From assembly GCA_938010715.1 (NCBI GenBank), contig CALLVG010000238.1, positions 1 through 32,636 of the forward strand: DNA of 32,636 nt, in the 5' to 3' direction. A program made the translations under genes and the position numbers. Of this stretch, positions 28,964 through 29,666 are shown one piece after another. The notes beneath the pieces were generated by a model. The model had not been told where the DNA came from, ran no database searches, and saw only the letters and a program-made list of their open reading frames with translations. Origin of the DNA: an uncultured Saprospiraceae bacterium. GTDB lineage: Bacteria > Bacteroidota > Bacteroidia > Chitinophagales > Saprospiraceae. Position 1 is the first letter of the stretch. Each line of letters starts with the position of its first letter.

Positions 28964-29037
28964 GGGCAATTAGCTCAGTTGGTTCAGAGCATCCCGATTT
29001 TAATCGGGAGGGTTTGGATGAGTCGAGTACAATTTGT
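28964..29037 (+). pseudogene. tRNA-Val-like copy A: intact 5' half, palindromic anticodon arm, degenerate 3' half
   Basis: GGGCAATTAGCTCAGTTGGTTCAGAGCA is identical to the tRNA-Val 5' part; then TCCCGATTTTAATCGGGA; the T-arm and acceptor 3' strand are decayed. The 3' boundary is approximate. Confidence 0.7.
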
Positions 29038-29051
29038 CAACCTTATTATAA

Positions 29052-29126
29052 GGGCAATTAGCTCAGTTGGTTCAGAGCACCTCGTTTACACCGAGGGGGT
29101 CGGAGGTTCGAATCCTTCATTGCCCA
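29052..29126 (+). tRNA. tRNA-Val (anticodon TAC)
   Basis: GGGCAAT TA GCTC AGTTGGTTCA GAGC A CCTCG TTTACAC CGAGG GGGTC GGAGG TTCGAAT CCTTC ATTGCCC A: full cloverleaf, T33, anticodon TAC. Confidence 0.95.
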
Positions 29127-29163
29127 CTTTAAAGGCTTCCCGTTTGGGAAGCCTTTTTTTGTA
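29127..29163 (+). terminator. Terminator after tRNA-Val
   Basis: AAAGGCTTCCCgtttGGGAAGCCTTTTTTT. Confidence 0.85.
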
Positions 29164-29183
29164 TATGGAGTCTTGGGATTTAC

Positions 29184-29260
29184 TGGCAATTAGCTCAGCT
29201 GGTTCAGCGCATCCCGAATTAATTCAGGAGAGTCGTGAGGTTCGAATCCTACATTGCCCA
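29184..29260 (+). pseudogene. tRNA-Val-like copy C with palindromic anticodon arm
   Basis: TGGCAAT TA GCTC AGCTGGTTCA GCGC A TCCCGAATTAATTCAGGA GAGTCG TGAGG TTCGAAT CCTAC ATTGCCC A. 1:72 mismatch, D-stem and T-stem mismatches, 18-nt arm in place of the 17-nt anticodon arm. Confidence 0.8.
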
Positions 29261-29310
29261 CATAAAAGGCTTCCCATTTAAAGATTTTTTGTTTTTAATA
29301 CATTTGCAAA

Positions 29311-29562
29311 ATGTACCACACCTACATCTTATATTCAAAGCAATTGGATAAATATTACATCGGTGCATGTGGAACTGATGTAAGCCGCCGCCTTCAAGAG
29401 CACCTTTGGAAACACAGTGGTTTTACTTCAAAAGCCAAGGATTGGGAAATAAAGCACGTAGAAGATTACGAAACAAAAGAATTAGCGTATGATAGAGAAC
29501 GACAAATCAAGAAGTGGAAATCAAGAAAAATGATAGAGGCATTGATAAGAAAGGGCAATTAG
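29311..29562 (+). CDS. GIY-YIG nuclease family protein (UPF0213/URI-like)
   Basis: MYHTYILYSKQLDKYYIGACGTDVSRRLQEHLWKHSGFTSKAKDWEIKHVEDYETKELAYDRERQIKKWKSRKMIEALI: YILYS...YYIG motif, R..EH, E..A..RE..IKKW. Its TAG stop (29560-29562) lies inside tRNA-like copy D. Confidence 0.93.
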   Translation: MYHTYILYSKQLDKYYIGACGTDVSRRLQEHLWKHSGFTSKAKDWEIKHVEDYETKELAYDRERQIKKWKSRKMIEALIRKGN

Positions 29563-29629
29563 CTCAGTTGGTTCAGCGCATCCCGAATTAATTCGGGAGA
29601 GTCGTGAGGTTCGAATCCTTCATTGCCCA
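29553..29629 (+). pseudogene. tRNA-Val-like copy D with perfect 18-bp palindrome in place of anticodon arm
   Basis: GGGCAAT TA GCTC AGTTGGTTCA GCGC A TCCCGAATTAATTCGGGA GAGTCG TGAGG TTCGAAT CCTTC ATTGCCC A; acceptor stem fully paired, palindrome at 29581-29598. Confidence 0.85.
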
Positions 29630-29666
29630 CTTTAAAGGCTTCCCATTAGGGAAGCCTTTTTTTGTA
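29630..29666 (+). terminator. Terminator after tRNA-like copy D (duplicate of the tRNA-Val terminator)
   Basis: CTTTAAAGGCTTCCCattaGGGAAGCCTTTTTTTGTA; near-identical to 29127-29163. Confidence 0.85.

Follow-up and report, generated by a model that had tools for sequence, protein, structure and literature searches.

What does a bacterial genome hold when three of four neighbouring copies of a tRNA gene carry, in place of the anticodon arm, a palindrome? The question is raised by a stretch of 32,636 nucleotides from an uncultured Saprospiraceae bacterium (contig CALLVG010000238.1 of assembly GCA_938010715.1), which is referred to here as the window, and in which a row of tRNA-Val copies, labelled A to D, surrounds a short open reading frame (Table 1).

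The tRNA-Val copies and the nuclease gene

In copies A, C and D the 17-nt anticodon arm is replaced by an 18-nt palindrome. An earlier note, made from the DNA letters and a list of reading frames, had described four copies, B being a canonical tRNA-Val(UAC) and the other three having palindromic arms without U33 and an anticodon in a 7-nt loop; ARAGORN, Rfam and direct reading of the arms confirm both parts of this description. Thus ARAGORN returns copy B as tRNA-Val(tac) and copy D as a tRNA without a valid anticodon, and Rfam RF00005 scores copy B at 70.9 bits and copy D at 34.4 bits, with A and C falling below threshold. Only the 5′ half of copy A is good, its 3′ half being decayed, whereas C and D retain both halves, C in a slightly decayed form. 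The same note had pointed to a compensatory swap between A and D at the seventh pair of the arm, and the arms, when read directly, do indeed have T-A in the one and A-T in the other. Two matches to the pattern TCCCGAN{2,12}TCGGGA are present in the window, where 0.03 would be expected.

Table 1. Features of the tRNA-Val locus in the window (positions on the contig, all on the forward strand).
Feature	Position	Strand	Evidence
Copy A: native tRNA-Val 5′ half with palindromic anticodon arm	28964..29013	+	leader and 5′ half align to same-genus empty site
Left palindrome TCCCGATTTTAATCGGGA (arm of copy A)	28992..29009	+	direct reading, pattern search
Copy B: intact tRNA-Val(UAC), internal rescue copy	29052..29127	+	ARAGORN, Rfam, identity to empty-site tRNA
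Terminator hairpin of copy B, native type	29131..29156	+	
Copy C: extra tRNA-Val copy with near-perfect palindromic arm	29185..29260 (start about 29185)	+	
Palindrome of copy C, TCCCGAATTAATTCAGGA, one mismatch	29212..29229	+	direct reading
GIY-YIG nuclease reading frame, 83 aa, active-site residues conserved	29311..29562	+	PF01541, E 1.7e-12
Copy D: palindromic arm and native tRNA-Val 3′ half, right insertion flank	29553..29629	+	3′ half, terminator and downstream DNA align to empty site
Right palindrome TCCCGAATTAATTCGGGA (arm of copy D)	29581..29598	+	direct reading, pattern search
Native tRNA-Val terminator	29634..29659	+	aligns to empty site

The reading frame occupies the interval between copies C and D, and its 3′ end extends into the beginning of D. 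On its domain, conserved motif, arginine and catalytic glutamate, the predicted protein is a member of the GIY-YIG superfamily, an identity missing from the earlier note, as were the empty site and the link between palindrome and nuclease lineage that are described below. Residues Y16, G18, R27, H31 and E63 are invariant in an alignment of ten members of the nuclease group. The protein is a bare single GIY-YIG domain, with a fold model of pLDDT 89, for which the closest PDB folds are UPF0213 and Slx1 at weak Foldseek E values (0.004 and 0.04, respectively). Slx1 is a structure-selective nuclease. No sequence relative was found in the PDB, and the window protein has no match in phage or plasmid collections, on which ground a phage or plasmid origin was rejected. 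A group I intron and a known defence system were likewise set aside, there being no Rfam intron match in the window and no PADLOC match.

The empty site and the structure of the insertion

The syntenic site of a genome of the same genus (G004), the flanks of which are 88% identical, holds one intact tRNA-Val with its terminator, and its neighbours are those of the window, an AsmA-like gene and an S9 peptidase (identities read from the open reading frames). A second congener (G001) has a single tRNA-Val, likewise adjoining the AsmA-like gene. In other words, empty and occupied alleles exist at one site, as is characteristic of homing genes. In the window, the native leader continues into the 5′ half of copy A, which forms the left flank of the insertion downstream of the native tRNA promoter region, and the 3′ half of copy D is continuous with the native terminator and the DNA beyond it. 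From the continuity of these two halves with the native flanks, the insertion, of about 0.6 kb, lies inside the anticodon arm. The native tRNA gene has thus been split into the outer copies A and D, and what lies inside is a complete tRNA and a nuclease gene.

This internal tRNA, copy B, is identical at 75/75 positions to the uninvaded tRNA of the empty site and is followed by a terminator of native type, such that it represents a copy of the host's own gene or of that of a close relative. No second good match to this tRNA-Val was found in the window's own genome, which is estimated to be 76.6% complete.

The same layout in other genomes

The earlier note had suggested looking for palindromic tRNA copies elsewhere, and scans of the order and of GTDB find many of them. 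Of 398 genomes of the order, 25 contain a palindrome pattern anchored on a tRNA, and a less strict version is found in 18 of 100 genomes, with the reversed control patterns giving 0 in each case. The layout that recurs is a 5′ half with palindrome, an intact tRNA, a terminator, a GIY-YIG reading frame and a palindrome with a 3′ half, and numerous Bacteroidota genomes share it, the genes affected representing at least a dozen tRNA identities and an element usually holding a single intact tRNA. At locus after locus it is the inner half of an outer copy that has decayed: extra upstream copies mostly begin at tRNA nucleotide 1 (15/23) and are eroded on their 3′ side, and extra downstream copies mostly reach the tRNA 3′ end and are eroded on their 5′ side. 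Some elements have the palindrome in the D or T arm.

The association of the nuclease with tRNA genes is seen from either direction. When the search starts from the nuclease, relatives are found in 67 of 100 genomes, and in 61 of the 80 GIY-YIG loci that rank highest by protein similarity a same-strand tRNA gene, of many identities, lies within 700 nt, usually 85–140 nt upstream of the reading frame. By our own estimate the chance expectation is roughly 1% (about 45 tRNA genes in 3.6 Mb), and divergent nuclease relatives, which serve as an internal control, have a same-strand tRNA gene within 700 nt in only 9/40 cases. When the search starts from the palindromic arm alone, at least 80 loci are found in 85,462 GTDB species; among the 80 listed, 61 include an intact tRNA, and 44 the nuclease gene no more than 1.2 kb away and in every case on the same strand. 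Almost every host among the matches listed belongs to Bacteroidota (Pedobacter, Algoriphagus, Flavobacterium, Niastella, Fulvivirga and others); the rest are a few Marinimicrobia and Ignavibacteria and single records from other phyla, and some of these non-Bacteroidota records may be misbinned or chance matches.

Conservation and covariation of the palindrome

To see whether the palindrome is maintained, extra tRNA copies were collected by anchors on the D-arm side and the variable-region side only. A palindromic arm with at least six pairs in register is present in 39 of these 48 copies (23 loci), and in most of the remainder, from tRNA-Ser, tRNA-Asn and tRNA-Met, the palindrome is slightly displaced. 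Among 29 distinct arms, pair 6 is complementary in all 29 (A-T in 17, C-G in 12) and pair 7 in 24, values that are reached in 0 of 5000 shuffles for either pair, kinship being ignored in this test; pair 2 covaries too, with T-A in three arms and C-G in 26. In a wider set of 103 palindromes, selected in part by pattern, complementarity holds at pair 6 for 99 and at pair 7 for 87. The covariation that the earlier note had thought worth seeking is therefore supported at pairs 6 and 7, and its view that the palindrome is maintained, rather than the residue of simple decay, is borne out by compensatory changes in arms from other genomes that were gathered without regard to the palindrome. The notion that arms with longer loops are shifted anticodons was rejected, as loop length varies freely and is often 4–6 nt.

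Nuclease lineage, palindrome family and target tRNA

The palindromes fall into three families, TCCCG..CGGGA, TCCGCC..GGCGGA and CTGCC..GGCAG, of which the second and third were defined after inspection of the data. Mapped onto a nuclease tree of only 83 columns, in which many forks are open, palindrome family needs 2 changes (shuffled mean 13.3, minimum 11) and tRNA identity 22 changes (40.7 when shuffled). One well-supported nuclease clade has the TCCCG type in 2/24 members, against 38/56 outside it; this clade carries TCCGCC..GGCGGA or CTGCC..GGCAG palindromes, and these too are found inside broken tRNA copies. For Met, Arg and Phe, each considered alone, the palindrome corresponds to the nuclease rather than to the tRNA. 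The window's own genome contains a second small GIY-YIG gene, at tRNA-Arg(TCG), with a broken copy that carries a CCTGCC..GCAGGCGGG palindrome, and two further copies of that palindrome lie elsewhere in the genome. Ten of 40 held-out loci have a classifiable palindrome, and in six of these it is as predicted (4/4 for loci with a close relative, 2/6 for weak ones), so that this check on divergent nucleases is informative in part only. Such co-inheritance of palindrome and nuclease could come from linked descent instead of recognition.

With regard to the tRNA, nuclease clades found at a single tRNA gene, Asn, Phe and Met among them, span several host families, from which it appears that nuclease lineages keep to one tRNA gene while switching hosts. 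A lineage-specific target together with horizontal spread is a property of homing genes, and is seen here in the tree and in the clades that cross host families. Fidelity to one tRNA gene across hosts would be expected of a homing enzyme, or of an element that spreads by recombination via the tRNA halves.

Palindromes outside tRNA genes

The window's own genome has 12 TCCCGA..TCGGGA sites, ten of which are outside this locus. Across 100 genomes there are 904 palindrome sites against 70 for the control, and the median number of dispersed palindromes is 5 in genomes with the nuclease against 1 in those without (p 2e-6, kinship ignored); the control pattern is uncorrelated with the presence of the nuclease. 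Some genomes are rich in TCCCGA sites with no nuclease detected at E 1e-8, two examples having 127 (G154) and 55 (G098) sites.

Among the dispersed sites, one TCCCGA palindrome in the window's own genome lies in an arm of a cobalamin-riboswitch-like sequence (L059, C109:3198-3220). In the same genome the palindrome also sits near the centre of dispersed repeats of about 200 nt, which form two families (L058, L061, L065 and L066; L060, L062 and L064). At a further locus (L053) the palindrome doubles as the stem of an intrinsic terminator after tRNA copies (TCCCGA..TCGGGA followed by a T-run).

The proposed element and its alternatives

The element is real, widespread and not the product of pseudogene decay. 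What it is most probably, although with a good measure of reserve on our part, is a chromosomal selfish element of Bacteroidota in which a GIY-YIG gene and an intact copy of the invaded tRNA gene are bracketed by palindromes, the nuclease reading its own hairpin. In such an element the outer copies A and D would have had the anticodon arm exchanged for a palindrome of the family belonging to that nuclease lineage, and the internal tRNA would supply the function so lost, such that the host would tolerate, and later depend on, the element. In all likelihood the palindrome serves as the DNA target of the nuclease itself, recognised as a hairpin on a single strand, as is reported for Ssn and NTS in Neisseria. 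Cutting at the palindrome, with recombination via the tRNA halves, would then allow the element to reach the corresponding tRNA gene of further genomes, and the same route would generate tandem arrays.

The nearest alternative is classical homing, in which the nuclease cuts the DNA of the intact anticodon arm and the palindromic arm is the cleavage-resistant, occupied form. The position of the insertion, inside the anticodon arm, and the empty allele of a relative are in keeping with it, as are nuclease lineages that are tRNA-specific and cross host families, which site-specific homing predicts, and the phage enzyme SegB, a GIY-YIG homing enzyme of tRNA regions. A homing element should, however, be without an intact copy of its target, and copy B, if that target is the intact arm, is just such an uninvaded tRNA, identical in 75/75 positions to the empty allele, which would be cut. 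It is on account of this intact, identical target that reading of the element's own hairpin is favoured over cutting of the intact arm. Moreover, the supposedly resistant form is not arbitrary, having a family-specific sequence that is present outside tRNAs too, and in some elements the palindrome is in the D or T arm. Classical homing is thus unlikely, albeit less so than the explanations that follow.

It is very improbable that the palindromic copies are functional RNAs, whether tRNA-like decoys or processing signals: they do lie downstream of the native tRNA promoter region and their hairpin is kept by covariation, but the decayed inner halves of the outer copies mean that most cannot fold as tRNAs, the palindrome also occurs in non-tRNA DNA, and its family tracks the nuclease clade. 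Of the candidates named in the earlier note, then, nuclease target sites and elements of a mobile cassette have gained ground, whereas processed decoy RNA is disfavoured. Equally little credence is given to nuclease-driven amplification of tRNAs in the service of the host, for instance against tRNA-cutting defences, as phage SegB does. Arrays of tandem copies, duplicate nuclease genes and the SegB precedent speak for amplification, yet the extra copies cannot decode and, with usually one intact tRNA per element, dosage is not raised. As for local pseudogenes arising from duplication and drift, the slight decay of copy C and the decay of inner halves would fit, but the recurrence of these palindromic arms across many genera, against 0 control matches, the covariation of the arm and the link to a nuclease gene lead to the rejection of this explanation, which is left with scarcely any probability at all.

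The selfish element that reads its own hairpin admits a bolder form, offered tentatively as a possible rather than a probable account, in which a GIY-YIG nuclease that recognises its own single-stranded hairpin moves by swapping that hairpin for a hairpin arm of a structured gene, in most cases the anticodon arm of a tRNA, duplicating the tRNA as a rescue copy, with different clades reading different palindromes. If so, it would be a new kind of mobile element, the GIY-YIG counterpart of the hairpin-ended IS200/IS605 elements. More generally, the preferred reading would, if true, give a function and a target to very common Bacteroidota genes labelled merely 'GIY-YIG nuclease family protein' and would account for many pseudo-tRNAs and some short dispersed palindromes in Bacteroidota. 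The three palindrome classes would be natural nuclease–site pairs, making the specificity of small GIY-YIG enzymes directly testable, and the element would be an instance of selfish DNA that renders its host dependent on an essential tRNA that it carries.

Comparison with known systems

The Ssn family, reportedly described in 2025, is said to consist of small GIY-YIG enzymes that cut single-stranded DNA at a specific palindrome, the NTS repeats of Neisseria. The likeness lies in a single-domain GIY-YIG gene and a short palindrome both near the gene and dispersed in the genome; here, too, the palindrome is dispersed and near its cognate nuclease gene, where cognate means co-inherited. Ssn is not known to have a tRNA link, whereas in the present element the gene is flanked by broken tRNA copies in which an arm has given way to the palindrome, and an intact tRNA is carried along. 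The Neisseria dRS3 pattern is ATTCCCNNNNNNNNGGGAAT, i.e. ATTCCC-N8-GGGAAT (PMC2911385), and the Neisseria core TTCCC..GGGAA resembles the TCCCG..CGGGA of the present palindromes.

The SegB enzyme of T-even phages, of GIY-YIG type and located in a tRNA region, drives amplification of tRNA segments (PMC13096335, PMC2988022), a precedent which shows that tandem arrays can result when such cuts are followed by recombination. With SegB of T4 and T6 and the free-standing GIY-YIG homing endonucleases, the present element shares a selfish GIY-YIG gene among tRNA genes, but differs in being chromosomal and within a tRNA gene, with a rescue copy and palindromic flanks. Islands with tyrosine integrases that integrate at tRNA genes are similar in their use of a tRNA gene as the insertion site with restoration of its function; here, in contrast, there is no integrase, the insertion is in the anticodon arm and a complete tRNA is supplied rather than a 3′ end. 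The IS200/IS605 elements, with their subterminal palindromes, have in common with it hairpins near both ends and a suspected single-strand step, although here a GIY-YIG nuclease stands where they have a Y1 (HUH) transposase, and strand transfer would be putative. Lastly, group I introns in tRNA anticodon loops that carry homing nucleases combine insertion in the anticodon arm with a homing-type nuclease, but here there is no intron, and a second gene, not splicing, restores function.

The single ingredients are therefore known, and the nested element appears to be undescribed in the literature searched: queries with the palindrome sequences, and with GIY-YIG and tRNA in Bacteroidetes, returned no description within what is an incomplete coverage, such that a prior account is possible.

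Variant loci

Two loci contain tandem arrays of palindromic tRNA 5′ halves, one of four 90-nt units with tRNA-Thr (L042) and the other of 80-nt units with tRNA-Val (L031). Both arrays are without a nuclease gene and stand upstream of an intact tRNA; they are perhaps decay products of the element. At five other loci (L099, L110, L120, L130 and L159) near-identical nuclease genes are arranged in tandem, with palindromic tRNA copies between them.
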